From positions 1-32,109 of the IMG/VR virus record IMGVR_UViG_3300043448_000877: a DNA stretch of 32,109 nucleotides, one strand, 5' to 3'. The stretch is from a virus. The position numbers were made by a program, and so were the translations under genes. How positions within the stretch are numbered: position 1 is the stretch's first letter; each line of letters opens with the position of its first letter. The notes below the pieces were generated by a model. It made no database searches and was not told where the DNA came from. It was given only the letters and a program-made list of their open reading frames with translations. Shown piece after piece: positions 1 to 19,342 of this stretch.

Positions 1-979
1 TTTGAACTGGTGCGCCGTCAGCATGAGCTGACCAACCATTTGGTGTATAATTAACATCAATACTTTCTATAACACAATCTTTCAATCTTGGTAGTTTGTC
101 GTTGTGTTGACCTTGTTGTTTAAAATCAATTTCAAACAAAGCAGGTGGAACCCAAAACATATTTTGACCTACTTCAGTATTCTTTTTGGGTGAAGCATAC
201 ATTCTAAATTTTTCAATTATGTTTTTTACCTGTTCAGCTTCAGCTGCGGAATATGGTGTAAATGTGAAAGATAATTGAAAATCTCTAAAGTTAACACCTT
301 GAAATAACACTTGTTTTTGTGGGTTGAAAACATAACCAGCTCTATTTAAAACCAATTTAAGTGCATCATTATCTCCACCACCAGCAAGATTCGTTGCTGC
401 TCTAACAGCTTTACCAATTAATGGTAATGCACCCATCGATGAAGCAATTGAAGATGTGTCATCATATGCTAGGGATGTTGTTAAATTGAAATTTTCTGGC
501 ATATATAAAGCAATTTGACCAACTGGCGTGCTTCTTTGATTATTTAAAAAACTTCCAAAAGCTTCATACATACCCGCAGTTGATTTTAATCCGGTGGTCA
601 GTCCACCAAAAACAGTATTCAAAGCACCTTGAAATGACCAATTACCCGAAAGAGTATCTTTTACACTACCAAATACCGATTCAGCCATATTAAAAATTCC
701 ACCTTCATTTTCATAAGCCTGTAGGACATTCTCACCAGCTGCACCTAATGCTTCAACTCCCTTATTAACAAAACCAGGCAATTCGTTCAATTTTACTTCT
801 TCAACTTCTTTAATTGTGAAATAAACTGCGTGAGATTTGTTAGAACTTCCAAGGTCTCTTGGATATTGATATGAAAAATATCCAATATCAGAACCAAATA
901 AATCTGATAGTGGACCACCAAAAAGTCCGCCTGGAATGTTTAGACCGCCAATTGATGTTGGTATTGAAATGATTGCCAT
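1..979 (-). CDS. 48: gp48-like baseplate tail tube cap protein (partial)
   Basis: Reading the minus strand from the ATG at 979 gives an uninterrupted frame of 326 codons that runs off the left edge, so the C-terminus is missing. It contains an NPQKQVLFQGVNFRDFQLSF stretch followed by an Ala/Glu-rich helix and an FRMYASP segment, and then a TPNGWSAH segment near the edge. These match what I know of the T4 gp48 family, which caps the baseplate and starts tail tube polymerisation. No strong Shine-Dalgarno is seen. A CATAAATA late-type element lies about 30 bases upstream. The gene diverges from gp4. The family call is from motif memory, not a search. Confidence 0.8.
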   Translation of the reverse strand, partial: MAIISIPTSIGGLNIPGGLFGGPLSDLFGSDIGYFSYQYPRDLGSSNKSHAVYFTIKEVEEVKLNELPGFVNKGVEALGAAGENVLQAYENEGGIFNMAESVFGSVKDTLSGNWSFQGALNTVFGGLTTGLKSTAGMYEAFGSFLNNQRSTPVGQIALYMPENFNLTTSLAYDDTSSIASSMGALPLIGKAVRAATNLAGGGDNDALKLVLNRAGYVFNPQKQVLFQGVNFRDFQLSFTFTPYSAAEAEQVKNIIEKFRMYASPKKNTEVGQNMFWVPPALFEIDFKQQGQHNDKLPRLKDCVIESIDVNYTPNGWSAHADGAPVQ

Positions 980-3671: not shown

Positions 3672-5519
3672 ATGAAATTTTTTGGAAACAATAAAAAAGA
3701 CACAGGCGAAACATCGTCAAGTCCAGTTGTGTCTGAAAAAACCAAACAATCTGCTAGTTTGTTTAAAAGAACAGCTAGCAAAATTGGTGACGTTTTAAAG
3801 AACAAATTTAGTAAATCGGAAGAATCATCTTTCGAACCTATGAGCAATGCAAAGTATCTAGGTGAAATTTACAAAATGATGGTGCAAAACCGTGATGATG
3901 CGAAACTAGACAGACAACAAAAAATTAATCGTAGAGAAGAAGAAGAATCTGAGGATCAAAAGAGACACGAAGAAATAATCAAAGCTCTTTCACTACGTAG
4001 AATACCAAAACCAAAAAAAGTTATTCGCCGTGAAAGAAAGGCGGAAGAAGCTGCGAAGAAAAAGGCACCTCCTAAACAGCCAACAAAGCCTCAGCCACCA
4101 AAGCCACAACCAAAGCCACAGCCTCAAGCACCAAAACCAGAGGCACCAAAACCACAACCTCAAGCACCAAAACCAGAGGCACCTAAACCTCAACCAAAAC
4201 CTGAGCCAAAGCCACAGCCAAAACCTGAGCCAAAGCCACAGCCAAAGCCAGAACCAAAGCCACAGCCAAAACCTGAGCCAAAGCCAGAACCAAAGCCACA
4301 GCCAAAGCCAGAACCAAAACCTGAACCAAAGCCACAGCCAAAACCTGAGCCAAAGCCAGAACCAAAACCTGAACCAAAGCCACAGCCAAAACCTGAGCCA
4401 AAGCCAGAACCACCAAAGCCTCAGCCACCAAAGAAAACTGAGCCTGTTAGAGAACCACCAAAACAACCACCAAAGAAAGCAGAACCTGTTAGAGAACCAC
4501 CAAAACAACCTTCTGCTCAACCTGCAAGACCACAACCAGGAAAAACATCAGCCACAAGAATGGGCAGAGAAGGTGAAGGACTAAAAGGATTAGATTCAGC
4601 TGCAAGAGCATCAAACATCAAAAAAGAACTTAATAGTTTAGGTGCTTCATCGGTATTGGCTGGTGGTATATTATTGGTTGCGTCTAAAGAAACTGCTGCT
4701 GGAGAAACACTTACAGAAGCTGGACCAGTAGCATATAAAAATACTTGGCGAAATATGGAATCAGGAAAATCTAAGATTCCAGCTGACAAATATAAAAAAA
4801 TTGCTGCAAAGGATCCTAGTGTTCCTCAATCCGGACCTGGTGCTGGAACAGCATATATGAATTTCACTTTTGCCAAAAAATGGTCAGGCGAAAAATGGAA
4901 ATCAGTGATAGAAGATCCAGACCAAAATAAATTTTTTGAAGCTGTTGGATATCATGGCGGCACCAAATACATGGGTAGGTCACTCATTGGTATAACACAC
5001 GAAGGAACTTATAAAGCCATTGGTAAATTTTTGGGATTAGATTTAGTTAATAATCCAGAATTGATTAATAGAGATGTTCAAACCACAACTGCTGCTACTT
5101 TAGCGTATTTGGCGTTACTTGCCGGCAACAGTTTAAATGCAGCGTTATCAATTGAAAAAATGAAAGCTGGTTATGAGAAAGGTTTAAGAATATTAAATTC
5201 TTATACCAATCAAGATGACTTAGATAAAGCTGTAATGTTATTGACGGCAGGAAAAGGTAATGTCGATATATCTAACGTGGAACAAGTTCGTGCAGCTTTT
5301 TCTGGAAATGGTGACAGACCAACTTATCTAAGGCAGCAATTAGAATCTGGTAAATCAGCCTCTAAATTGTTGGGTATAACAACAGAAAATCTTGACCTTC
5401 ATAAAGAAAGTGGTAAATCTTCTCCGGTAAGTAATAACACCACAAATAACAATTATGTTTCCGAAGAATCTGCAAATACCAACAGAGTTGATGATAGACC
5501 GGCCCACAAAAGAAAGTAA
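3672..5519 (+). CDS. Hub or tape-measure-like protein with Lys-Pro repeat and GH19-like domain
   Basis: A 615-residue protein in four parts. Residues 1-100 are charged and end in a Glu/Arg-rich coiled helix (REEEESEDQKRHEEIIKAL). Residues about 138-285 are a Lys-Pro-Gln-Pro/Lys-Pro-Glu-Pro repeat. Residues about 330-560 resemble a GH19 chitinase-like muramidase: a Glu (E340) in ASKETAAGE, then KYMGRSLIGITHEGTYKAIG and LGLDLVNNPELI. The tail is Asn/Thr-rich. Its place after the tail chaperone gene and its length, close to T4 gp29 (590), suggest a tail-interior or hub protein that opens the cell wall during infection. The start abuts the preceding stop. The enzymatic assignment is by motif only. 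Confidence 0.7.
   Translation: MKFFGNNKKDTGETSSSPVVSEKTKQSASLFKRTASKIGDVLKNKFSKSEESSFEPMSNAKYLGEIYKMMVQNRDDAKLDRQQKINRREEEESEDQKRHEEIIKALSLRRIPKPKKVIRRERKAEEAAKKKAPPKQPTKPQPPKPQPKPQPQAPKPEAPKPQPQAPKPEAPKPQPKPEPKPQPKPEPKPQPKPEPKPQPKPEPKPEPKPQPKPEPKPEPKPQPKPEPKPEPKPEPKPQPKPEPKPEPPKPQPPKKTEPVREPPKQPPKKAEPVREPPKQPSAQPARPQPGKTSATRMGREGEGLKGLDSAARASNIKKELNSLGASSVLAGGILLVASKETAAGETLTEAGPVAYKNTWRNMESGKSKIPADKYKKIAAKDPSVPQSGPGAGTAYMNFTFAKKWSGEKWKSVIEDPDQNKFFEAVGYHGGTKYMGRSLIGITHEGTYKAIGKFLGLDLVNNPELINRDVQTTTAATLAYLALLAGNSLNAALSIEKMKAGYEKGLRILNSYTNQDDLDKAVMLLTAGKGNVDISNVEQVRAAFSGNGDRPTYLRQQLESGKSASKLLGITTENLDLHKESGKSSPVSNNTTNNNYVSEESANTNRVDDRPAHKRK
4081..4435 (+). repeat. Degenerate hexamer-based coding repeat (Lys-Pro-X-Pro)
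   Basis: A tandem array of CCAAAGCCA, CAGCCAAAA and CCTGAGCCA type units encodes alternating KPQP and KPEP. The proline spacing suggests an extended, stiff linker between the helical N-terminus and the muralytic domain. Codons vary between CCA and CCT and between CAA, CAG, GAA and GAG, so the repeat is somewhat diverged. It can be expected to vary in copy number between relatives. Confidence 0.9.
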
Positions 5520-5522
5520 AAA

Positions 5523-6905
5523 ATGGCAGACAATAAATTAAATTACCAACAAGCCAGAAGAATCAGAAAATCTAATTTTTCTGATATGGTCCTTGACCAG
5601 TTGGCTCAAAAAGACACTGGTATTGTTAGTGCTATTGGTAAAACAATTTCACTAAGAAGTCAAGCTCGTATAAAAGGTATCAAAGAAAAATTTGACCCGT
5701 TGAACGTCATAAGATTTATGACAGGTGGTTCAAGATTTGTTCCAGCATTGTTTGGTAAATTAACTGGTCGTAGTCAAAGAGACATTGACTATTTCACAGG
5801 CAGAACTAAAAGTGTTATTGGTGGTTACAACACAGCAGATAAACTTAAAAAACTTCCTGGTGAAGGTGACACAGCAGGAATCAATGAACAATTATCTAAG
5901 ATATATTCATTCTTAAAAAATAGCCGTGAAGAAGATATTAGATTAAGAGAATTGGAAAAAAATTCTGCGGAAGAAATTGAAAGTGAAAAACAAAGACGCC
6001 ATAAAGAATTCTTGGCAGCTCTTACTGGAACAAAATTTACAGCACCAGTGCAAGAACAAAAAACTGCTGAACCCGTTAGACAAGAACCATCTGTGATGGA
6101 TTATATTGCTGAAGCATTCAGTATTGGTCGTGCAGCGTTGCCAGTTTTGGCCAACATTGCCAGATTCTTTATGTTTAACCCAATTGGTCTTGGTTTGTTG
6201 GCTGGTGCAAGTTTGCTCATGCTTCTAGAAAATGATAAAAATCCAGAAGCAACAACAAAAAGTATTCTTGGTGCGATGGATCCTGGAGCTGAATCTAAAG
6301 CAATTATGGAAGCTGCGGAAAGCACCGATGCAGTTGAACGTAAGAGATTGAATCTTCTTGCTGATAGACCATCTGAAGATAAAGCATCTTTCCTAACTCC
6401 ATGGAAAGACAAAGAGATGCAAGATGCATATCTTAAAAAGATTGGTTGGGATGAAAAGAGTGGAACAACCGAAGAGGAACGTAGAAAAGGTTTTTCACGT
6501 ATTGATTCTGAGGGTAGATTAGTAACACCAGTTAAACCTGCGCCAGAACCAACACCTGCAAAAAATGCAACTGTTCCAAATGAAAGTGCTGCTGAAACTA
6601 AACGACTTAATTCGGTTCCAAATACAACACCAACAGCGGTGCCAGAACCAGCAGCTGCAGAACCAAAGGCAACTCCAGTTTCAGTAACACCAAAATCATC
6701 ACCTGTATCCAATTTAACCAATCAGGTTAATTTTGGTAATATTGAGGCTAAAAATCAGAATGTTACACCAACAATGGTCAATAAAACCGTCAACAACGTG
6801 ACCAAAACTCAACCTAAGAGTGGTTTAAGACCTATTGAGATATCGGTTAGAAATGATGAACCGACATTCATGGGATTGATTGTTGATTCTACTCGGATGA
6901 TATGA
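5523..6905 (+). CDS. Tail/hub-associated protein, paralogous N-terminal region to the preceding gene
   Basis: A 460-residue protein starting three bases after the preceding stop (TAA AAA ATG). Residues about 120-165 (LSKIYSFLKNSREEDI then EKQRRHKEFLAAL) resemble the helix of the preceding protein (LGEIYKMMVQNRDDAK then DQKRHEEIIKAL), so the two share an ancestral module. Residues about 202-236 are hydrophobic (VLANIARFFMFNPIGLGLLAG) and could insert into a membrane, which would suit a tail-interior protein released on infection. The C-terminal third is Pro/Ala/Thr-rich, then Asn-rich. I do not recognise a named family. It is the last gene of the rightward block, facing gp32. Confidence 0.7.
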   Translation: MADNKLNYQQARRIRKSNFSDMVLDQLAQKDTGIVSAIGKTISLRSQARIKGIKEKFDPLNVIRFMTGGSRFVPALFGKLTGRSQRDIDYFTGRTKSVIGGYNTADKLKKLPGEGDTAGINEQLSKIYSFLKNSREEDIRLRELEKNSAEEIESEKQRRHKEFLAALTGTKFTAPVQEQKTAEPVRQEPSVMDYIAEAFSIGRAALPVLANIARFFMFNPIGLGLLAGASLLMLLENDKNPEATTKSILGAMDPGAESKAIMEAAESTDAVERKRLNLLADRPSEDKASFLTPWKDKEMQDAYLKKIGWDEKSGTTEEERRKGFSRIDSEGRLVTPVKPAPEPTPAKNATVPNESAAETKRLNSVPNTTPTAVPEPAAAEPKATPVSVTPKSSPVSNLTNQVNFGNIEAKNQNVTPTMVNKTVNNVTKTQPKSGLRPIEISVRNDEPTFMGLIVDSTRMI

Positions 6906-10145: not shown

Positions 10146-10754
10146 TTATTTATGAAACTCCACACCGTCATATTCTGGAATACCCAGAATTGACCTTGAT
10201 ACATCAAGAATGTATATCAATCTTCGTTGTTTCGATTTGTTGTATGCACTATGCATTTGTCCATTGTCAAAACCAAATAGGTCTGACCAGTACACTTTTG
10301 TGGTAATAACCTCAAAGCACACATCACCTTCCGGAACAATTAAAGGTATGTGTATACGAATTGTTTTGTGTGATGAGTTTTCAATATCAGCGTGAGGTTC
10401 AATCACACCACCAGCATCCAAAATGCTGTAACCACTACAACCATATTTTGGTGTGAAATATTTTTTTGTTAATGCTGATGCTGTAGGGAAAAGACTTTGT
10501 ATTTTTTCTTCTAAGAAGAAGTTATATTCAACATTTTGTTCGGGATAACAATAACGTAATCCTTCAACTTTCCACATTTGTTTTTCGGATTCATTTAGTG
10601 TTGTGTATGGATTAGCAGCGGCATAAGAAATACCACCTTTGAATGTGGTAAAAAAATCTGTATGATGTGCCAAAAATTCTTCACGTAATTTTGGTGCTAA
10701 TTCCATCAACTCATCAGCAATTTTTATTTCATTTCTATACCAAATAGACTGCAT
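10146..10754 (-). CDS. Aspartyl/asparaginyl beta-hydroxylase-like 2OG-Fe(II) oxygenase
   Basis: A 202-residue protein with the iron site H121-x-D123 in GGVIEPHADIE, the strand TIRIHIPLIVPEG, a distal H168 in GQMHSAYN, and R178 for 2-oxoglutarate in RRLIYILDV. This is the core of the Asp/Asn hydroxylase family, which hydroxylates protein side chains or small substrates. The ribosome-binding site GGAGGAGTA is strong. The gene lies directly downstream of the tmRNA coding piece and may share its transcript. It is one of five oxygenase-like genes in the window. Confidence 0.82.
   Translation of the reverse strand: MQSIWYRNEIKIADELMELAPKLREEFLAHHTDFFTTFKGGISYAAANPYTTLNESEKQMWKVEGLRYCYPEQNVEYNFFLEEKIQSLFPTASALTKKYFTPKYGCSGYSILDAGGVIEPHADIENSSHKTIRIHIPLIVPEGDVCFEVITTKVYWSDLFGFDNGQMHSAYNKSKQRRLIYILDVSRSILGIPEYDGVEFHK
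10147..10154 (-). promoter_or_regulatory. Candidate late promoter for the 9786-10073 gene
   Basis: CATAAATA followed by AGTATATGG on the minus strand. This is 7/8 to T4 TATAAATA and nearly the same as the element before gp48. It overlaps the stop of the hydroxylase gene. Predicted start is near 10135. Confidence 0.45.
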
Positions 10755-10771
10755 TACTCCTCCAAATTAGT

Positions 10772-10800
10772 GGTGGGTATTCTGTTACGAGGAACCCACC
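10772..10800 (-). other. Inverted repeat after the tmRNA coding piece
   Basis: GGTGGGT (10772-10778) and ACCCACC (10794-10800) form a perfect 7-bp stem with a 15-base loop. It lies just past the tag reading frame and before the ribosome-binding site of the hydroxylase gene. No U tract follows. It may mark the 3' processing boundary of the tmRNA precursor or shield the hydroxylase start. Confidence 0.5.
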
Positions 10801-10934
10801 GAACCCTAGTCAGCGTTTAGGCTGCCAATGCGAACTTTTCATCGTTTGCGTTTACTTTGATTTACTTTTTACGACTATCTGTGTCGAGTTGTCCACTTCT
10901 ATACTCTTTACCCTGTCGAAACCATGGCAGGCCC
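10801..10934 (-). ncRNA. ssrA: Permuted tmRNA, coding piece (5' acceptor strand, tag frame)
   Basis: The minus strand from 10934 reads GGGCCTG, then GGTTTCGACAGGG, the conserved tmRNA 5' domain. GGGCCTG pairs over all seven positions (one G-U) with CAGGTCC of the acceptor piece at 11146-11152. AGAGTAT (10907-10901) pairs with GTATTCT (11180-11174), and ACAAC (10892-10888) pairs with GTTGT (11202-11198), rebuilding helix 2 between the pieces. A small hairpin CGAC/GTCG precedes the tag. Tag codons begin at GCA 10849. Because the acceptor piece lies upstream, the gene is circularly permuted, as in alpha-, some beta-proteobacteria and some cyanobacteria. The 3' end is uncertain by about 20 bases. 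It rescues stalled ribosomes and tags their products. Confidence 0.92.
10817..10849 (-). other. tmRNA tag reading frame (ANDEKFALAA)
   Basis: Codons GCA AAC GAT GAA AAG TTC GCA TTG GCA GCC then TAA encode ANDEKFALAA. The E. coli tag is AANDENYALAA and beta-proteobacterial tags are very similar. The ending ALAA is the signal for ClpXP and related proteases, so tagged proteins should be degraded by host enzymes. The preceding AGTAAAC is the expected resume context. Confidence 0.95.
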
Positions 10935-10935
10935 A

Positions 10936-11130
10936 TCATAAAGAAACTTTGAATAAAGGCATACTCTCACTCAAATGTCTAATATATTCAAGCGTGGTAG
11001 GAAACTCTGATAATGTTCCTTTGTGGCTTTTGATTTCAACCTTACTTTGGTCGTTACTCTCAAGCCCATAAAAAAACATAGTAGTAGCACCACTATCTAA
11101 TTGACCTTTGAATTGTTGTTCAATATTCAT
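10936..11130 (-). CDS. Unknown 64-residue protein encoded inside the tmRNA intervening segment
   Basis: The ATG at 11130 is preceded by AAGGAAG (11140-11134) and a three-base gap. This Shine-Dalgarno begins one base after the CCA of the acceptor piece. The TGA ends one base before the first G of the coding piece. The protein starts MNIEQQFKGQLDSGATTMFF and ends HLSESMPLFKVSL, with a mixed charged middle. I recognise no family. An in-frame upstream start at 11187 would translate through the tRNA-like domain and is rejected. The near-perfect fit to the 207-base insert, with ribosome-binding site, argues for a real gene; its role in or with the tmRNA is unknown. Confidence 0.75.
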   Translation of the reverse strand: MNIEQQFKGQLDSGATTMFFYGLESNDQSKVEIKSHKGTLSEFPTTLEYIRHLSESMPLFKVSL

Positions 11131-11141
11131 AAACTTCCTTA

Positions 11142-11204
11142 TGGTGGACCTGGCGGGAGTCGAACCCACGTCCAGAATACGTTTCAAGTTGCTTCATACA
11201 ACCA
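11142..11204 (-). ncRNA. ssrA: Permuted tmRNA, acceptor piece (T arm and CCA end)
   Basis: The minus strand has a T arm GTGGG-TTCGACT-CCCGC (11169-11153), acceptor strand CAGGTCC, discriminator A, and an encoded CCA (11144-11142). Upstream there is no D arm, anticodon arm or 5' acceptor strand, so it is not an ordinary tRNA. Its missing partner strand is at 10934-10928. The stretch before the T arm (TATTCTGGACGTGGGTTCGA) resembles the 3' end of E. coli tmRNA. The 5' boundary is set just before the helix-2 strand GTTGT and is uncertain. In the primary transcript this piece comes first. Confidence 0.92.
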
Positions 11205-11207
11205 TAA

Positions 11208-11339
11208 TCACTCATAGGGTTTCAAAAAATCGTCACCCTCTGAATCTTTTTCAAAATTATTCCAATCATAGTTTACCAACTTATAAATCCAATAAGCGTG
11301 TAAACCTACAACAATAACAAGTAAAAATAATTTATCCAT
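11208..11339 (-). CDS. Small single-pass membrane protein upstream of tmRNA
   Basis: A 43-residue frame beginning MDKLFLLVIVVGLHAYWIYK, one transmembrane helix, then an acidic tail. Its TGA ends a few bases before the acceptor piece. The sigma70-type promoter at 11346-11374 would start RNA at or next to the A of the ATG, so translation from that transcript would be leaderless. A longer in-frame start at 11396 lies in the exonuclease gene. No family recognised. It may simply occupy the 5' leader of the tmRNA precursor. Confidence 0.5.
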   Translation of the reverse strand: MDKLFLLVIVVGLHAYWIYKLVNYDWNNFEKDSEGDDFLKPYE

Positions 11340-11345
11340 AATTGT

Positions 11346-11374
11346 ATTATACACCAATTTATTTAGTTTGTCAA
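11346..11374 (-). promoter_or_regulatory. Perfect-consensus sigma70 promoter for the tmRNA locus
   Basis: TTGACA (11374-11369), exactly 17 bases, TATAAT (11351-11346). Predicted start is 11339 or 11340. It overlaps the stop of the exonuclease gene. It should drive the small membrane gene, both tmRNA pieces, the gene between them and possibly the hydroxylase gene as one precursor. Confidence 0.88.
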
Positions 11375-12030
11375 CTGTTTTTGTGGTAATAATCAATAGC
11401 TCTAACTAAACCTTCAATGTGGTCTTGTGTCTTTTCTTTGAATATAACTGGTGGTGCATTATCTACAGCCATAATGATTACCAAATCATCAATAGGTTGA
11501 CCAACCAATTCTTCATACATCAATGCATATGCGGTAGTTTGCCAGAAATAATCTAAAATATCTTCACGGTTTTTGACCTTCTTTGATGTTTTAAAATCAA
11601 TTACTGCCAACTTACCTTCATACTCACCAATACAGTCAACACGTCCTGCCAATCCTAGTTGTGCAGACCACAGTCCAACCTCTTGGTAGTGTATGTTATT
11701 GATTTTGTTTAGATACGGTTTGATTGCTATGAACATTTCTTTAGCATCAGGCATAACATTACCTGGTGGTTTTGGTTCATTGTTCAAATAGTATTCACAT
11801 AACGTATGCATGTTGGTGCCACGGGATGTGGCCTGTCTGGAGATTTTGTTTGCAACCTCATCACCAACTCTGCGGCGCCATGCCATGATGGCTTCTTTTT
11901 TCTGAGCTCCCACCACAGTAGTTACTGATGGTAGTTTTTTACCATCAGGTGTAACATAATATCTTTTCCCATCAGGGAAAGTTTGAGACTCAATTTTTGG
12001 AATCTCTTTTGGTGGGCAATAAATGAACAT
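11371..12030 (-). CDS. PD-(D/E)XK exonuclease (RecB/Cas4/MGME1-like)
   Basis: A 219-residue protein. H75 lies in GTNMHTLCEYY, D132 in GRVDCIGEYEGK, D145 and K147 in LAVIDFKTSKK, and the QTTAYALMYEE helix supplies the Gln and Tyr of motif IV. This is the RecB-nuclease pattern shared with MGME1 and Cas4. A DNA end-processing role in replication, recombination or host DNA degradation is likely. Its ATG overlaps the radical SAM gene stop (TAATG). The T4-like core here otherwise lacks a comparable nuclease. Confidence 0.85.
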   Translation of the reverse strand: MFIYCPPKEIPKIESQTFPDGKRYYVTPDGKKLPSVTTVVGAQKKEAIMAWRRRVGDEVANKISRQATSRGTNMHTLCEYYLNNEPKPPGNVMPDAKEMFIAIKPYLNKINNIHYQEVGLWSAQLGLAGRVDCIGEYEGKLAVIDFKTSKKVKNREDILDYFWQTTAYALMYEELVGQPIDDLVIIMAVDNAPPVIFKEKTQDHIEGLVRAIDYYHKNS

Positions 12031-13550
12031 TACAATAATCCTAACTTCAATTGTTTGTATTCTAAAATAGTTTTGTCAGCTTCTTCTATCTTTTTATTTA
12101 GAAGTTGTTTATCGAACGTTCCGTCAATAATATCTTTAACGTCAACACCTAGACCAACCAATTCATATACGTCATGGTTGATACTAACACCTTTATTTGC
12201 ATTGCCATAGATTGATTTGCCTGCTGCAATACGGTGTTGTTCTGTTTCTTTATTTAAAGAATCGGCAATAGTTCTGACGGTATACCAATTTGTGTATTTG
12301 TTTTTCCAAATCATAATGCCTTCATCTTCTTGTGCATACCTGAAATCATCATCACCTTTTGGAACTTTATATTCACCAGGTGCCATTTCACTATACCCCC
12401 ACTTATCATACTCTTTTTCAAATTCACTCAATCGACTGACTGAACCTTTACGAATTAAAAGTGGCCACCAATCCCAATTATCAAACACTTCAAAGTTTTG
12501 GTCTAACAATATCTGTTGACTTTTCATTACACTAGAGATTGGTTCTCCAGGTAAACCAGCAATCATGCCTGTGTATGTGTAGATTGGTTTATATTTCTTC
12601 AACTGTCTAATCGCTTCAAACTGTCTTTCGTTATCTAAACCTTTACCAATGGCCTTCTTGGCCTCTGGATGCAAAGACTCAAGGCCAAACGTTGCAGCAA
12701 CAAGACCTGTATCAGCAAGCATTGGTATAGTTTCAGGGAAACGTTCAATCAAGTCTGCACGTAAGAATGCTGTATATGTAATCTTAACACCACTCTTTGC
12801 AATCGCTTCTGCAACATATTCTAGTTTTACCACGTTGTCGTTGAATGTGTCATCATTAAACCAATAGTTGTTGACGCCAAACAATTCATAGTTTCTACGC
12901 AACTCATCAGCTAGGTTGTCTACGTGACGAATGTAATCATTCTTTTTTTTACCCAACAACGGGAAGGCACAGAAACGGCACCTGAAAATACAACCACGAC
13001 TGATTTCAATTGGCAAGAAATTATTTTTGATTAGGTCACTTTCCAACCACTTGATTGATAAGTCACTATCATCATTCTTATATGTCATTTCAGCATTGAT
13101 TGAAAAGGTTTCTCTGTAAGGAACCCATTTCAAATCATCCAAACGTTTCTTTGTTAAGAATTTCAAATAGTGTAATACTGCTTCTTCAGCATAACCCCAA
13201 AAGATTCTATCGACCTTAGTCAAATCAACACCACTAATAGGAGTTTCATTGCCACCAATCAATGTCTTTACATGTGGATATTTCTCTTTAATGTGTTTGA
13301 ATAGGTGATTGATTTTATCAAATGCATAGACGAACGTGATACTGATACCAACAAACAAAGTTTTTGATCCAATAAATCTAGCACAGATTGTTTCCAATTC
13401 TTCTTCTGTGAAGTTGCCAAAATAATCAATAACTTCAATGTTGAAACCATGTGGTTCCAAAAAGGTTCTCAATCTTGCTGCACCGGCTGGACGACTAATC
13501 GTTCTAGTTCTTTCCATGCCAGTGAAAACAATTCCATGTGTTTCGTTCAT
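12030..13550 (-). CDS. Radical SAM enzyme with B12-binding-like N-terminal domain
   Basis: A 506-residue protein. Residues 1-130 have the Rossmann layout of the cobalamin-binding domain of B12-type radical SAM enzymes, but the DxHxxG cobalamin-ligand motif is not evident. The 4Fe-4S motif is C187-x3-C191-x2-C194 in ISRGCIFRCRFCAFP. It is followed by barrel segments NNYWFNDDTFNDN and GLESLHPEAKKAIGKG, and a long C-terminal region. Such enzymes make radical methylations, ring rearrangements or thioethers; the substrate is unknown. It lies next to oxygenase genes and three genes away from the Cys-rich block, suggesting a shared pathway (inference). Confidence 0.85.
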   Translation of the reverse strand: MNETHGIVFTGMERTRTISRPAGAARLRTFLEPHGFNIEVIDYFGNFTEEELETICARFIGSKTLFVGISITFVYAFDKINHLFKHIKEKYPHVKTLIGGNETPISGVDLTKVDRIFWGYAEEAVLHYLKFLTKKRLDDLKWVPYRETFSINAEMTYKNDDSDLSIKWLESDLIKNNFLPIEISRGCIFRCRFCAFPLLGKKKNDYIRHVDNLADELRRNYELFGVNNYWFNDDTFNDNVVKLEYVAEAIAKSGVKITYTAFLRADLIERFPETIPMLADTGLVAATFGLESLHPEAKKAIGKGLDNERQFEAIRQLKKYKPIYTYTGMIAGLPGEPISSVMKSQQILLDQNFEVFDNWDWWPLLIRKGSVSRLSEFEKEYDKWGYSEMAPGEYKVPKGDDDFRYAQEDEGIMIWKNKYTNWYTVRTIADSLNKETEQHRIAAGKSIYGNANKGVSINHDVYELVGLGVDVKDIIDGTFDKQLLNKKIEEADKTILEYKQLKLGLL

Positions 13551-13551
13551 A

Positions 13552-14346
13552 TTAAATAATTTCAGAATCCTTAACCACTTTGGTTACGTATTTTTGTTTA
13601 ATCGCTTCAAAGAAATCGATATCTTCTTCGGTCAATTCAACCGCATCAATTTTTTCTCGGTTGCCTCTTACCCAATTTTGCAGTTGTTCAAACACACCTT
13701 CGTAGTGAAAATGTTTGGTCACTTTTTTTGTATCATATGCATCCATAATGATATGATATCTATCTTCATCGGAATCATTTCTGATTTGGTGCCATTGATT
13801 TGTCCAAAGAATCCATACACCACCGTCAGCTGGCATGTGTAAATTTTTACCTTGGCAAATATGAACACACTTCTTATTTGTCCACAATGGAATATGAATA
13901 CGTGCCATGTATTCAGTTTCTTCCGCATCCCTATGAACTAAACTTTTTGAATGTGCTTTCAAACAGGTCACACGAGCTCTTACTGGATGAAATCCCATTT
14001 CACGTATATCATCTAAAACTTTTTTAATCTCACCAACGTATGCTTCTGTTGGTTTGTCGTGTTCAAGTCCATGTGAGATATTAAAGTATTTGTATGCTTT
14101 CAAAACCAAATCGTCTGTTGGTAAAAACGATTCAAGTGTTTGTCCTTTTTCCAACTGAATTGCTTCCCAACCGCCAGTCCATGTGGCTTCTTTGCACAAT
14201 AAACTCCAACCACCAAAACCATTGTATTGTGGTGTTTCATATTCTTCGCCTTGGACTACTTGGTCACCCAATGTGAATACACTTTCACGAACTTCTTTTT
14301 TAAGTTTCTCTATATCTACTGTATAATTTAATTTTTCGAAAAACAT
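13552..14346 (-). CDS. Asp/Asn beta-hydroxylase-like 2OG-Fe(II) oxygenase
   Basis: A 264-residue protein with the iron site H138-x-D140 in LVHRDAEE, then ARIHIPLWTN, HMPADGGVWIL, the distal H186 in NQWHQIRN, and R196 in DRYHIIMD. The N-terminal half (FGGWSLLC, TGGWEAIQL) is typical of hydroxylases that bind a protein or peptide. AAGGATAAAAG precedes the ATG. It starts a run of oxygenase genes and stands one base from the radical SAM gene. Substrate unknown. Confidence 0.8.
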   Translation of the reverse strand: MFFEKLNYTVDIEKLKKEVRESVFTLGDQVVQGEEYETPQYNGFGGWSLLCKEATWTGGWEAIQLEKGQTLESFLPTDDLVLKAYKYFNISHGLEHDKPTEAYVGEIKKVLDDIREMGFHPVRARVTCLKAHSKSLVHRDAEETEYMARIHIPLWTNKKCVHICQGKNLHMPADGGVWILWTNQWHQIRNDSDEDRYHIIMDAYDTKKVTKHFHYEGVFEQLQNWVRGNREKIDAVELTEEDIDFFEAIKQKYVTKVVKDSEII

Positions 14347-14356
14347 CTTTTATCCT

Positions 14357-15028
14357 TTATAAGTAACCAGTTTCTTTTAACATATCATACACTTGACCAT
14401 AATCATAAAATCTTGTGCGTAAAGCAAAAGCTTTTCTTAAATTGGCTTCACCACCTAAAGGTTCAACATTGTGTGGTATTCTAACATCTAACATATATGC
14501 TTCACTTGGTTGTGCCACAAAAGATCCAATTTCATAAACATCATCGAATGAATAGACAGCATCAACATATGTAATTTCCTCACATGTCGGCATGTTTTGT
14601 TTTTGAGCAACAAACTCTTTAACTCTTGTTTTTAATTCTTCCACATTTACGTTTTGGTCAACAATGGTGCCACCATCAACACCAAGGTGTCTATCTTCTT
14701 CTGTTTTCCAAGCATTAGCGTTTGGCTTTGCTTTGAAAAATACAGTTCTATAATTTTGTGGATCATAATAGAAATTAATTGTTGTAATGAAATCATTATC
14801 CACATGTGGTAACAATAGACTATTGATTGACATTCTTGTTACTTGGAAATCTTTCCAATATCGCTCAGGTATAACTTTATACAATACAACTTTTTCTGGT
14901 TCTGGTGTCCAAATCGTGTTATGCCTTACACCCAATCCATATTTACCCGCAAAAGAGTCTGCTCGACCTTGCGGTATGATTGTGTGTGGCATATATTCAA
15001 ATGTGCCTTTTAATTTAACAAATGACAT
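14357..15028 (-). CDS. 2OG-Fe(II) oxygenase-like protein, paralogue of the next gene
   Basis: A 223-residue protein with H75-x-D77 in LLLPHVDNDFITTINFYYD, a DVRIPHNVEP segment with the distal H186, and a late R198 or R204. It shares with its neighbour (15015-15548) the blocks IWTPEP, PERYWKDF, TVFFK/TVFYK, DSFVA/GSFVA and a KETG end, so the two arose by tandem duplication. The 2OG oxygenase call rests on H-x-D...H...R spacing and is weaker than for the other copies. It overlaps its neighbour by 14 bases. Confidence 0.68.
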   Translation of the reverse strand: MSFVKLKGTFEYMPHTIIPQGRADSFAGKYGLGVRHNTIWTPEPEKVVLYKVIPERYWKDFQVTRMSINSLLLPHVDNDFITTINFYYDPQNYRTVFFKAKPNANAWKTEEDRHLGVDGGTIVDQNVNVEELKTRVKEFVAQKQNMPTCEEITYVDAVYSFDDVYEIGSFVAQPSEAYMLDVRIPHNVEPLGGEANLRKAFALRTRFYDYGQVYDMLKETGYL

Positions 15029-15548
15029 TACCCGTTTCCTTTAACATTTCAACTACGTCCTTATACTTATGAACGAATGTGCCAAGTGTAATTGCTTTTC
15101 TTAGTTTAAAATCACCCTGAACACTATGTATTTGAGTTACATCAAGTGCCCACACCTCAAAATCTTTTGCTACGAAACTATCAACTTCTTCCAAATCTTC
15201 TTCAAAGTATATGTGACCATTGGTTTGATTTTCGACCTGTGCGGTCCTTGGCACATCAACCTTTGGTTTGTAAAATACTGTTCTACAACCTTCTGTTTGA
15301 AGATAGAAATTAATTGAGGTAATAATTTCGGTATCTGTATGTGGAGGTATTTTACAATTAATTGTCATTACTGTCAAGTGAAAATCTTTCCAGTATCTTT
15401 CAGGCAACACACCGTAAATCTTTCTAGGTTCTGGTGTCCATATCTTTTTGTAATCTATACCTTTACCATCTTCACCTTTAAAATCTTTTAATTGGTCAAT
15501 AACGGCAAAAAGTGGTTTCTCAAATGTGCTTTCCAATTTAGTGAACAT
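15015..15548 (-). CDS. 2OG-Fe(II) oxygenase-like protein, paralogue of the preceding gene
   Basis: A 177-residue protein from the ATG at 15548, which overlaps the stop of the upstream gene (TAATG) and has GAGTGGAAATA ahead of it. A GTG at 15557 is a less likely start. The iron site is H70-x-D72 (PPHTDTEIITSINFYL), distal H141 in DVTQIHSVQG and R150. It lacks the 30-residue insert of its paralogue. Function and substrate are unknown; the two copies in a row argue for different substrates or a heteromer. Confidence 0.68.
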   Translation of the reverse strand: MFTKLESTFEKPLFAVIDQLKDFKGEDGKGIDYKKIWTPEPRKIYGVLPERYWKDFHLTVMTINCKIPPHTDTEIITSINFYLQTEGCRTVFYKPKVDVPRTAQVENQTNGHIYFEEDLEEVDSFVAKDFEVWALDVTQIHSVQGDFKLRKAITLGTFVHKYKDVVEMLKETGNVIC

Positions 15549-16258
15549 TATTTCCACTCTTTAATCTTTGCCATACGACCACCCCAAGATTTCAAAATGA
15601 CCGTATTTTGTGCGTTCTTGTCTACCACTTTTCTGAGGTCAGTAGACAATGAGATACGTAGGTCATCGGACTTATTTTCTTCAACACCATGCAACACATA
15701 AGAAGGAAAGAAAATCAAACGTCCTTCTACTGGTTTATATCTACGTTCTTTTAGTTGTGGTGTTCCACTCAAAGAAATATTTAACCAATCAATTGCATGT
15801 GACGAATCGAACAATACGAGGTCACCACAACCTTCTTTTGCTTTGATGTAGTAAGTTGCAGCAATAGCCGATTCGGTGTGTCCATGAACTTCCAGTTTCT
15901 CTCCTGGTTCACGCACGTTGACCCAACCCATAAAGTGTTCACAACCACGAATGTTTAACATCCTAAGTTGTGGAATATTTTGAACAATCTTTTTGGTTAC
16001 AATGTCTATAATTTCTTGTTTCAGTATATCTAAATTGGGTCTGCTGTAGTCCCATATACTGTTGTTCGGGTCTTTGTCTTTACCCAATACGATATCTTTG
16101 CCGATACCATAGATTTCATCTAATAGTGTTTCGTTGAATTGTTCATCGAAACGTGTTTGCACTTCCCATATTGGACTTTGCCAAAATAGATTTTGTGCAT
16201 TTTGAAACCAATGATAACGGTCTCTATCTTCTTTAGTCATAGCAGTATTCATCACCAT
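15548..16258 (-). CDS. Putative 2OG-Fe(II) oxygenase (PF13759-type)
   Basis: A 236-residue protein. MGWVNVREPGEKLEVHGHTE gives the H127-x-E129 or H125-x-H127 metal site, AIAATYYIKAKEGCGDLVLF gives the jelly-roll strand, and VEGRLIFFPSYVLHGVEEN plus DDLRISLSTD gives distal H190 and R201. This matches the PF13759 putative oxygenase family frequent in T4-like aquatic phages. GAGGTGTTATT precedes the ATG at 16258. The upstream pair of small unknown genes overlaps none of it; the gap is 13 bases. Confidence 0.8.
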   Translation of the reverse strand: MVMNTAMTKEDRDRYHWFQNAQNLFWQSPIWEVQTRFDEQFNETLLDEIYGIGKDIVLGKDKDPNNSIWDYSRPNLDILKQEIIDIVTKKIVQNIPQLRMLNIRGCEHFMGWVNVREPGEKLEVHGHTESAIAATYYIKAKEGCGDLVLFDSSHAIDWLNISLSGTPQLKERRYKPVEGRLIFFPSYVLHGVEENKSDDLRISLSTDLRKVVDKNAQNTVILKSWGGRMAKIKEWK

Positions 16259-16271
16259 AATAACACCTCAA

Positions 16272-16649
16272 TCAATTTTGTTTTTCGAACCAGTCCTTAT
16301 ATTGTTTCAAATATTCTAACTTCAATTCATGTTCTTCATCAGTCAAATCTTCATCTTTTGGTTGTGAAACATAATTATCAAATTCTTCCGGTGGTGTTCT
16401 AATGTCCGTTTTCTTTACCCACCCAGCCTCAGTTGTGTGTTCCATATTTGAATCAAATAGAACAGTTAATATGTCTTTATATTTCCAAGACATTTCAAAA
16501 TATTTGTCTCTTTCCGCTGGTGTTAGATTCAACACATTTTTATAATATGTTGATTTCATAAATGTTGCAATAACACGTGGTTCAAAAAGTATTGCATCAC
16601 CATCATATGTTTTGATGGTGTCCAAATGTGTAAAACTATATCGTTTCAT
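16272..16649 (-). CDS. Unknown 125-residue protein, similar end to the next gene
   Basis: Opens MKRYSFTHLDTIKTYDGDAILF, has a helical centre (YFEMSWKYKDILTVLFDSN) and ends LKQYKDWFEKQN. Its upstream neighbour has LYEMFTDYEDVLTKVYGDA and ends VKSYKEWLDKR, so the two may be diverged copies. It overlaps that neighbour by four bases (ATGA). No known domain. It lies between the Cys-rich virion-type gene and the oxygenases, so it may be an accessory of that set. Confidence 0.7.
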   Translation of the reverse strand: MKRYSFTHLDTIKTYDGDAILFEPRVIATFMKSTYYKNVLNLTPAERDKYFEMSWKYKDILTVLFDSNMEHTTEAGWVKKTDIRTPPEEFDNYVSQPKDEDLTDEEHELKLEYLKQYKDWFEKQN

Positions 16650-16945
16650 CTTTTATCCAACCATTCTTTATATGATTTAACTTCATTAAATTCATTTTCA
16701 ACACCTTCTCTATACAATTTTGGTAAAAGAATAGTTGATTTTACCAATGCATCACCATATACTTTGGTCAATACATCTTCATAATCAGTAAACATTTCAT
16801 ATAATTGTTCTCTCACTTCTTGTGGAGAATCATAAAATGCTGCACGACAATTCGTATTAAAATAGTGTGTCATATGTTCGTAAACATATTTTGAACTGTC
16901 ATCAATTAAAACCCTCACAGGTCTTTTATATGAATATGTTGGCAT
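16646..16945 (-). CDS. Unknown 99-residue protein next to the Cys-rich gene
   Basis: A soluble, charged protein (MPTYSYKRPVRVLIDDSSKYV at the start). The start codon overlaps the stop of the Cys-rich gene (TAATG), which implies coupled translation and a shared role or stoichiometry. The region around YEMFTDYEDVLTKVYGD and the end KSYKEWLDKR resemble the following gene. I do not recognise a family. A chaperone or docking protein for the Cys-rich product is conceivable but unproven. Confidence 0.7.
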   Translation of the reverse strand: MPTYSYKRPVRVLIDDSSKYVYEHMTHYFNTNCRAAFYDSPQEVREQLYEMFTDYEDVLTKVYGDALVKSTILLPKLYREGVENEFNEVKSYKEWLDKR

Positions 16946-17853
16946 TAAGCAAGTTCCTTTTTTGGAATAATCTTTTCAATCAATCGACCAGTTTCAGCAA
17001 CAAGTTTAAACATCACGAAAATTGCAACCAATGCTGCACCTTTAATAAAACCAGGTTCTTTCTTACTTGGTCCAAACCAACGTTGCCATACACCAACAAC
17101 TTTACAAATTGGTATACCAAATCCCATAATCATCTTGCCTGTTAGGCTGCCTGTTTCTTTTTCACCCATCAAATAGGCCATTTCTTCTGCCCAAGGTGTT
17201 GCAATATCATATGCCCAAGACACGGACCATTTCTTAGCAGCCTCACTAAATTCTTCATCAGACATCCAAGGCATCATCTTAGGACCTTTGCCTTCCATCC
17301 AATCAACAACAATCTCTGCCCATGCACGATAACCATTGTAGATATCTGGATTGGTCTGAATCAAGCGTTCACCAAATGCTTGGTCTGCTTCGAAAATGTT
17401 TTGTTTCATTAAACCAAGGTCAAACAATTTGGTGCAAATAATCTTAGAACAGTTACAGTTATAGGTAAAACAGTTTTGGTCACTTGTGCAATTATAAACT
17501 GGATTGGTTGCTAATTGGCAGTCACCTGTTTGCAACCATGCTTGTGAATCACAATTCCAACAGTTGATTGCGGTGCAGTTGGCTGTCTTGTTACATTGAG
17601 CTGTGGTTTGTCCTGCTGGAGCTGTTGCATTGCAATTACAATTTGTAGCGTTCTTGTCATTACAGTTGCCAGCATTATTCTGTCTGTAATATTTTAGACC
17701 ACCAAATGAATTCATATTTGGTGCGCTTGGTCTTATTCCCGATTTGATATATCCATTAAGGAAGTTTAAGTCGGCAGTTGTATTTGATACTCTACCAATT
17801 TCCGAATTAATATTTGATACACCAATCGTTGAGCCTGATGATGGTAATGTCAT
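16945..17853 (-). CDS. Cys/Asn-rich virion-type protein, candidate modified substrate
   Basis: A 302-residue protein. The N-terminus (LPSSGSTIGVSNINSEIGR) is the start pattern of many phage tail and fibre proteins. Residues 64-140 hold 13 Cys, ten of them preceded by Asn (NCN, NCNCN, NCWNC), in a Thr/Ala/Asn-rich block with Trp only twice. The rest (FGERLIQTNPDIYNGYRAW, WSVSWAYDIATPWAEEMAYLMG) is helical, and residues about 268-290 are hydrophobic. A radical SAM/SPASM gene lies 34 bases upstream in the same direction. The Cys block could bind metal, form disulfides, or be turned into thioethers (inference). A late-type element sits upstream. Confidence 0.78.
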   Translation of the reverse strand: MTLPSSGSTIGVSNINSEIGRVSNTTADLNFLNGYIKSGIRPSAPNMNSFGGLKYYRQNNAGNCNDKNATNCNCNATAPAGQTTAQCNKTANCTAINCWNCDSQAWLQTGDCQLATNPVYNCTSDQNCFTYNCNCSKIICTKLFDLGLMKQNIFEADQAFGERLIQTNPDIYNGYRAWAEIVVDWMEGKGPKMMPWMSDEEFSEAAKKWSVSWAYDIATPWAEEMAYLMGEKETGSLTGKMIMGFGIPICKVVGVWQRWFGPSKKEPGFIKGAALVAIFVMFKLVAETGRLIEKIIPKKELA

Positions 17854-17884
17854 TTTAGTTCTCTTTGTTTAAAATTACTGTTAA

Positions 17885-17892
17885 TATTTAGG
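17885..17892 (-). promoter_or_regulatory. Weak candidate late promoter for the Cys-rich gene
   Basis: The minus strand reads CCTAAATA followed by TTAACAG, 6/8 to the T4 late octamer, about 30 bases before the start of the Cys-rich gene and across the stop of the SPASM gene. A structural gene would need late expression. The match is imperfect. Confidence 0.3.
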
Positions 17893-19342
17893 TCTCCAAC
17901 CTAGATTTACCATAAACAGGAATATCATCCAATTGACCAACAATTTCTTTAACTACCTTGATAGGTATAATCTTTTTACGAGTTTCTTCCTCTTTGTGTT
18001 CAAAGATTGTTCCAAAAATATCCTGTCTATCGAGCGGTAATGTATCACTCTTAATTAAAGTAGGAATGTAACCATCTGTCATTACTGTGAAACCTGCAGC
18101 AAATAGAGCTACGTTGTCAGAGTATGCATTAGCACATGAGATATCCCAAAACTTTTTGTCCAAGAACATACATGCACCTTTACAGATATGTAATACTGGA
18201 CACTCTGGACATTCTTTACGATTAGACCAGTGTGTGACAGATTTCAAAGCAACATTTGAATAATCATCTAGTGTTCCACCATGATGTGATTCACCGTTCT
18301 TTGAGATTTCCAAAGAACTCACGTTCTGACAGGTCATTACATTACCACGTAGGTCAACAGAAATGGTGTGTTCATCATCCATGCCACACTTTTGTCCCAA
18401 GAATTTAGATTCTCTGTGGTTCAATACACTATTTACAAAATCATCAATTTTTCCTAATTGACCTCTGAAACCTATTTGTCCCTGTGATGCATACAATTCA
18501 CCAAAAGCACGTTGACGGAAAGCAAAATGTTCTTCCTTAGTAATCAATGAATTCACGATGCCTTCTTCATCATATGCATCAACCATTGAACCTTCACCTA
18601 AGATAACATTTTCGTCACCGGTTAGGTTCACAAACCAGTCATAGATTTCTTTGCGGCTCTGATTCTTAGAATTCAGCATTGAGTTGAAACTGATGCTCTT
18701 ACCCAATCTAGTTTGCATACGATAGAAGTTTAAGATTCGTTCTTTAACTTCAGGATCATCGAATGGATCAGGACCACGAACATATTGACCTGGACCGTCA
18801 TGTGAAATTGACACAGCAAAGTCCATCATCATCAACCAATCAATGATTTCATCTGTAAGAATAGAACCATTGGTGATGATACTGAATTGTGGTTTTCTTT
18901 TCCACGAATCAAACTTCTCAGCAATTGCTTCAGCAAGTGGTTTCAGAGTCTTCCAGTAAACAAGTGGTTCACCACCCCAAAACTCGACCTTCAAACCAAC
19001 ATCTTCATCGAAATGTAAAACTTCCAACTTTTGCATGAAAGAATCAATATCTTTCTTAGAAGTTTCTGGTTGACGTTCAACAAATTTTTGAGAACAATAA
19101 TCACAAGTATAGTTACAGCTAAGCCCCATCTGAATTTTCAGATGGCTGATTAGTTTTGCCTTTTTGAGTGGTCTATCCTTATCAAATGGTTTGTAAGGTT
19201 TGCGTAAGTTTTGTTCTCTTTGATCCTCTGGATATTCAAAAACATTGCCTTCTGCATCTTTCAATACATTTGACATGTTGTCATAAAAGAACGTTTTTTT
19301 GTCACCATCTTCAAACCTTGTGGCTTCAATCTCAAAAATCAT
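17888..19342 (-). CDS. Radical SAM/SPASM maturase
   Basis: A 484-residue protein. The radical SAM cluster motif is C76-x3-C80-x2-C83 (MGLSCNYTCDYC), with GGEP at 123-126 and TNGS at 157-160. The C-terminal SPASM domain carries seven Cys: C319, C338 (after GNVMT), C378, C381, C387, C391 and C403. That is the full set for two auxiliary 4Fe-4S clusters, as in anaerobic sulfatase-maturating and RiPP-maturing enzymes. Such enzymes modify Cys, Ser or other residues on peptides. The adjacent Cys-rich virion-type protein is the obvious candidate substrate (inference). GAGGATACCCC precedes the ATG. Confidence 0.9.
   Translation of the reverse strand: MIFEIEATRFEDGDKKTFFYDNMSNVLKDAEGNVFEYPEDQREQNLRKPYKPFDKDRPLKKAKLISHLKIQMGLSCNYTCDYCSQKFVERQPETSKKDIDSFMQKLEVLHFDEDVGLKVEFWGGEPLVYWKTLKPLAEAIAEKFDSWKRKPQFSIITNGSILTDEIIDWLMMMDFAVSISHDGPGQYVRGPDPFDDPEVKERILNFYRMQTRLGKSISFNSMLNSKNQSRKEIYDWFVNLTGDENVILGEGSMVDAYDEEGIVNSLITKEEHFAFRQRAFGELYASQGQIGFRGQLGKIDDFVNSVLNHRESKFLGQKCGMDDEHTISVDLRGNVMTCQNVSSLEISKNGESHHGGTLDDYSNVALKSVTHWSNRKECPECPVLHICKGACMFLDKKFWDISCANAYSDNVALFAAGFTVMTDGYIPTLIKSDTLPLDRQDIFGTIFEHKEEETRKKIIPIKVVKEIVGQLDDIPVYGKSRLET

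Follow-up and report, generated by a model that had tools for sequence, protein, structure and literature searches.

Permuted tmRNA spacers of environmental phages as a probable exchangeable slot for protein-coding genes

A permuted tmRNA gene with a protein-coding spacer

The stretch of DNA analyzed here (the window) is the 32,109-nt IMG/VR virus record IMGVR_UViG_3300043448_000877, positions 1–32,109, and its genes for gp32, PhoH and a gp19-like tail tube protein identify the virus as a T4-like phage. Its minus strand carries a permuted tmRNA gene, recovered by an Rfam scan (RF04321, 119.4 bits, E 5e-23, span 11203–10817) and also called by ARAGORN, in which the 3′ acceptor/T-arm piece precedes the coding piece and both lie on the same strand. 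The acceptor piece (11142–11203) comprises the T arm and the 3′ acceptor strand CAGGUCC and ends in A-CCA at 11142; the coding piece (10770–10934, its 3′ boundary approximate) begins with the 5′ acceptor strand GGGCCUG, which from 10934 pairs at 7 of 7 positions with the CAGGUCC preceding ACCA. Rfam, ARAGORN and exact positions place both pieces. Acceptor pairs 2-49, 3-48 and 4-47 covary among relatives, and the tag reading frame (10817–10849, minus strand; ARAGORN and exact positions) specifies ANDEKFALAA, ending AA-stop.

Between the encoded CCA and the 5′ acceptor G1 lies a 207-nt intervening segment (IVS; 10935–11141, minus strand) that is expected to be removed during maturation. Reading on from CCA, it holds UA, a Shine-Dalgarno (SD)-like AAGGAAG, an ATG at 11130, a nested 64-codon ORF (10936–11130, minus strand) for the protein MNIEQQFKG...MPLFKVSL, a UGA stop (TGA, 10938–10936) and a single U (10935) ahead of the G at 10934. 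An earlier note on this DNA had described a 207-base spacer filled by a 64-codon ORF that stops one base before the coding piece, and its start, stop and lengths hold exactly to the base.

That note had also taken the ORF for a gene, and comparative sequence evidence indicates that it is a real, conserved protein-coding gene under protein-level selection. A protein search found 11 relatives in viral contigs and an alignment-based search 45 loci, with homology across the whole protein and a conserved reading frame (alignment A2, 37 sequences). The comparison in related phages that the note had proposed yielded five further distinct tmRNAs in which the ORF and its anchors recur. L001/L002, L003/L004 and L005 carry it inside a permuted tmRNA between the anchors CCA-UAARGAAAUU...AUG and UUA-UGA-U-GGG, as in the window, and L234 is a more distant cargo-borne member of the family. 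Median pN/pS among the cargo members is 0.28, the lowest value (0.10) being that of the window against L250. In most of the other loci the gene stands free, about 40 such homologues occurring in other phage contigs, and there it ends differently, lacking the C-terminal VSL. A tree of the family calls for two or more switches between a free-standing and a tmRNA-borne gene, a weak result given the few columns; a single origin of the tmRNA-borne form was weakly rejected (p-AU 0.028, with few columns and one long branch). Four phages with the free-standing gene (L020, L023, L025 and L048) carry a gene for a CUA-anticodon tRNA that ARAGORN labels tRNA-Pyl, which suggests amber suppression.

From the 37-sequence alignment, AlphaFold predicts a confident small alpha/beta-sheet fold for the window protein (pLDDT 95.5). 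Neither Pfam nor PHROGs gave a match, a PDB sequence profile search gave none, and no PDB fold was significantly similar (best, protein L-like, E 0.11), so that by these measures an endonuclease domain is absent. A fold search of the viral models in BFVD returned one uncharacterized phage protein (E 1e-5); a match there to I-TevI was weak (E 0.025, TM 0.43) and was not relied on. GenBank phage records and the bacterial genomes searched contained no homologue, and the 5′-anchor pattern matched seven bacterial contigs, none of them at a tmRNA. The product is presumably an accessory phage protein.

Other features of the window deserve mention. A run of protein-modification genes (10146–19342, minus strand) encodes a B12-binding radical SAM protein, a second radical SAM protein, two Asp/Asn beta-hydroxylase-like proteins and a 2OG-Fe(II) oxygenase, and may constitute a phage-encoded modified-peptide or modified-protein cluster. 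Near this run is a gene for a 302-aa protein with a Cys/Asn-rich center (16945–17853), and at 3672–5519 on the plus strand lies a gene for a 615-aa protein that contains an extended tract of Lys-Pro-(Gln/Glu)-Pro repeats.

Cargo in the spacers of environmental phages

A scan of viral contigs that used only the spacer's 3′ terminus (GTTTCTTTATGATGGG) recovered at least about 60 permuted tmRNAs, and among the matches listed most spacers carry other ORFs, unrelated to that of the window. With further scans based on the 5′ end plus ATG, on spacer length, and on the coding piece only, the pooled collection comprises at least 305 distinct permuted tmRNAs from viral contigs, at least 129 of which have an ORF-filled IVS (spacer of at least 75 nt, ORF of at least 20 codons) belonging to at least 59 families. 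Rfam scores representative loci with cargo as tmRNA_permuted. The earlier note had held that unrelated or absent inserts in related phages would speak against a coding insert; such inserts do occur, yet the unrelated ones are ORFs too and share the start and stop anchors, which makes the spacer a general cargo slot as opposed to a one-off.

The anchoring is apparent at both ends. Among the matches listed, start codons cluster 10–14 nt after CCA, most of them preceded by an SD-like AAGGA. Sorted by family, stops lie at −1 in 37, at −9 to −14 (in the 3′ arm of the spacer stem or close ahead of it) in 14, and within the coding piece in 8. Proteins of the −1 class listed end in SL (48 of 72) or FL (10 of 72), and the longest IVS listed is 514 nt. 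Recognizable cargo includes a thioredoxin with the CGPC motif (L222 and L243; PF00085, E 4e-21) and HNH homing-endonuclease-type proteins (L229, L232 and L197; phrog_655, E 7e-15), along with small membrane proteins and very short hydrophobic ORFs of 22–26 codons. Several families have members outside tmRNAs within the fetched loci. In 13 of 17 scorable families pN/pS lies between 0.06 and 0.42; it exceeds 0.6 in the other four, two of which show very few changes. All cargo-bearing sequences are metagenomic viral contigs and none is a GenBank phage record; in the GenBank phages inspected (Moby, Xanthomonas X1, Synechococcus BUCT-ZZ01, vB_Sm_QDWS359, XacN1 and UF_RH6) the spacers are 71–126 nt long and have no filling ORF.

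Some spacers depart from the common layout. In one cargo family (L292, L296, L310, L318, L323, L336 and L350) the frame stays open through the spacer and enters the tmRNA coding piece, so that an RNase P cut would leave a non-stop message. In L223, L241 and L326 the first ORF, for a 36-aa membrane-like protein, stops 92 nt short of the spacer's end, seemingly followed by a second hydrophobic frame; one spacer may here hold two genes. The L265 cargo contains an in-frame TAG, which could reflect decay or recoding. A winged-helix match for a 382-nt cargo (E 0.009) fell below the cut-off and was not used.

Cargo changes between phages that are otherwise alike at the locus. L387 and L396, from different samples, are identical over 1,500 nt on each flank and differ by one base in the acceptor piece, and they carry different ORFs between the arms; the more diverged pairs L275/L193 and L303/L478 also differ in cargo, and L083/L364 is a pair of one unfilled and one filled spacer. 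Among the matches listed, the window's closest flank match with other content (L350; 71% and 75%) holds another cargo family, and the 52-nt spacer of L230 is a deletion remnant of a window-type ORF. Just upstream of the window tmRNA lies a gene for a small membrane protein resembling the L472 cargo (38% over 34 aa), and in L055 and L056 a free-standing window-type gene adjoins the tmRNA; both arrangements fit, at the level of sequence likeness and position, a slot that genes enter. In L004 a GIY-YIG endonuclease gene (340–906, minus strand) follows a truncated cargo-bearing tmRNA copy, with a second permuted tmRNA beyond it, and in L003 a similar-looking gene (5367–6026, minus strand) lies downstream and is followed by a stray tmRNA 3′ fragment.

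These exact swaps could be read as the work of homing, in which endonucleases invade the tmRNA gene and all other cargo is passenger or remnant. The HNH cargo and the interruption of a cargo-bearing tmRNA copy by the GIY-YIG gene in L004 agree with such a history. However, only one of the 59 cargo families was recognized as an endonuclease among the matches listed, and plain homologous recombination between the conserved tmRNA halves explains the swaps as well; we consider homing an unlikely, though not negligible, account.

The spacer stem and proposed translation of the cargo

Pairing between the two ends of the IVS lengthens the acceptor stem to a helix of about 22 bp, and this helix covaries. 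In the window, the 5′ arm UAAGGAAGUUUAU (11129–11141, minus strand) holds the SD-like AAGGAAG and the start of the AUG, and the 3′ arm GUUUCUUUA-UGAU (10935–10947, minus strand) doubles as the last codons, V-S-L-stop; its UGAU lies opposite ACCA (A-U, a C.A mismatch, C-G, A-U), and about 12 further pairs follow. The window helix is present in both the MFE and the centroid structures (z −2.35). Across 35 distinct cargo-bearing sequences, 94% of cells pair and 13 of the 22 pairs have changed on both sides, giving a covariation score of 0.382 versus 0.139 for shuffled and at most 0.121 for slid controls. The coding-piece scan, whose pattern includes neither arm, gave the same picture, with 10.9 of 12 positions paired versus 8.3 for shuffled partners (maximum 9.35). 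Short unfilled IVSs share this stem. What sets the filled spacers apart is a ribosome-binding site in the 5′ arm, an SD being found in 25 of 36 filled versus 5 of 25 unfilled spacers listed from that scan. In the −1 class the 3′ arm is translated as the C-terminus, and because the last codons and stop are usually built into this arm, many cargo proteins end in -SL or -FL.

Folding models of seven precursors give the SD an unpaired probability of 0.00–0.08 in the full RNA versus 0.22–0.87 in the nascent RNA, so the stem is predicted to bury the SD in the finished precursor and to do so less in the nascent one. With the ribosome-binding site seated in a stem that extends the acceptor helix, the interference between translation and tmRNA maturation suggested by the earlier note is plausible.

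Selected protein-coding cargo, conserved anchors, a covarying stem and cargo that differs between locus-alike phages together support, at the sequence level, a reading in which the permuted tmRNA spacer is very probably an exchangeable cargo slot holding a nested protein-coding gene, one that would probably be translated co-transcriptionally. The slot, rather than the window protein, is the finding. One precursor would be transcribed, running from acceptor piece through CCA and spacer to coding piece. The spacer ends would pair as a continuation of the acceptor stem, placing the cargo gene in the hairpin loop, its ribosome-binding site in the 5′ arm and usually its last codons and stop in the 3′ arm. 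Translation would begin on nascent RNA, ahead of the 3′ arm closing the stem, the terminating ribosome would shield the RNase P site for a short time, and the spacer would then be excised by RNase P together with 3′ processing. Tailed phages (T4-like in the case of the window) would swap, keep or lose the cargo between constant tmRNA halves. The route by which the ribosome-binding site is reached is a model: the stem should also form in the excised spacer, and later translation should therefore be poor. On this reading, translation and maturation would be coupled.

It is tempting to extend this coupling to a switch, a tentative and rather doubtful proposal in which each precursor is either translated or matured, such that cargo and tmRNA output trade off. 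Ribosomes on nascent RNA would keep the SD/stop stem from closing and would mask the RNase P site. The excised cargo mRNA would have its stop codon at the extreme 3′ end; trimming could turn it into a non-stop message, which that same tmRNA could tag.

A different arrangement, in which the tmRNA is split, its halves transcribed separately with an ordinary gene merely between them, would accommodate IVSs of up to 514 nt among the matches listed and an internal promoter, which could exist; nor does a two-piece mature tmRNA strictly need a single precursor. Yet the IVS ends pair across the ORF and covary, the same stem occurs in short unfilled IVSs, and a start codon 10–14 nt after CCA leaves little space for a promoter of the gene's own, making this arrangement very improbable. 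Slightly more improbable still is a regulatory leader, in which translation of the ORF controls tmRNA maturation and the protein itself is irrelevant. The placement of the ribosome-binding site and stop in the processing stem, with the stop 1 nt from the RNase P site, and the occurrence of the 22–26-codon hydrophobic ORFs would suit a leader; amino-acid-level selection, free-standing homologues, the CGPC motif of the thioredoxin, and the turnover of content among relatives argue instead for cargo that matters as protein.

A chance ORF or assembly artefact, though an AT-rich 207-nt spacer like that of the window is filled to at least 80% in 0.6% of shuffles (ends fixed, interior dinucleotide-shuffled), is already refuted for the filled spacers as a set by their recurrence in independent samples and at least 59 families, by pN/pS and domain matches, and by the 3′-arm scan, in which 46 of 58 long IVSs listed (at least 75 nt) are filled, whereas 200 rounds of the null gave 1.3 on average and never more than 5. 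In that scan the start was free and the anchor ends in TGA in one frame, and the same anchor was retained in the shuffles. At new loci listed from the coding-piece-only scan, the filled fraction was 14 of 19 for IVSs of at least 110 nt (the other five lacking a filling ORF), 22 of 39 at 75–109 nt and 3 of 28 below 75 nt, and the 3′ ends were TGAT, TAAT and variants. The short-spacer pattern demanded TTATGAT, so its 3′ ends are no independent evidence, and the detector accepts a locus only if all 7 bp of its acceptor stem are intact, which under-counts decayed loci.

Relation to known tmRNA genes and inserts

A protein gene in a tmRNA spacer was not found in the published literature searched, which excludes most subscription journals, and novelty is accordingly claimed as "not found" and not as proven; the earlier note, too, knew of no such tmRNA gene. 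Its statement that known spacers are short needs a qualifier, given that a 2025 survey of 11,946 permuted genes reports, in the part of its text available, a repetitive element in one very long spacer and a tRNA gene in another spacer, and there mentions no protein gene (PMC11915505). The consulted portion of the Melnitz phage paper likewise treats phage permuted tmRNAs and mentions no cargo-type spacer gene (PMC9004378).

If the cargo-slot reading holds, a spacer thought to be waste becomes a conserved insertion site for protein genes, and the slot gives a reason for long tmRNA spacers to persist in phages. Pairs of the same phage with different cargo offer ready material for studying translation versus tRNA-type RNA processing on one transcript. 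Cargo proteins, the thioredoxin among them, will be overlooked by gene callers that mask tmRNA genes, and reading between permuted tmRNA halves is a route to accessory phage genes.

Several known systems invite comparison. The mRNA of arfA is a trans-translation target, and the end of the window ORF's mRNA could likewise make it a tmRNA substrate, although arfA shows no sequence likeness to the ORF. The free-standing homologues (L006–L011 and L018–L056) belong to the same family, with 51–71% identity to the window protein (A2) and conserved FFY, H-K-G and PLF positions, but they lie outside tmRNAs and their C-termini lack VSL. Group I introns, some with LAGLIDADG homing endonuclease genes, occur in the tmRNA T-loop, according to the part of the survey available (PMC11915505). 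The spacer gene resembles these in being coding DNA inserted into a tmRNA gene and missing (here, expected to be missing) from the mature RNA; the window differs in that its T arm is intact (CGUGGGUUCGACUCCCGC), the Rfam scan found no intron family, a pre-existing spacer is used, and the cargo is diverse and mostly non-endonuclease. The permuted tmRNAs of RF04321, RF01849 and RF01850 share with the window the gene order, encoded CCA, 7-bp acceptor, T arm, tag ANDEKFALAA and a spacer between halves; unlike those genes as far as the available reports describe them, the window's spacer is filled by a protein gene with a ribosome-binding site of its own.
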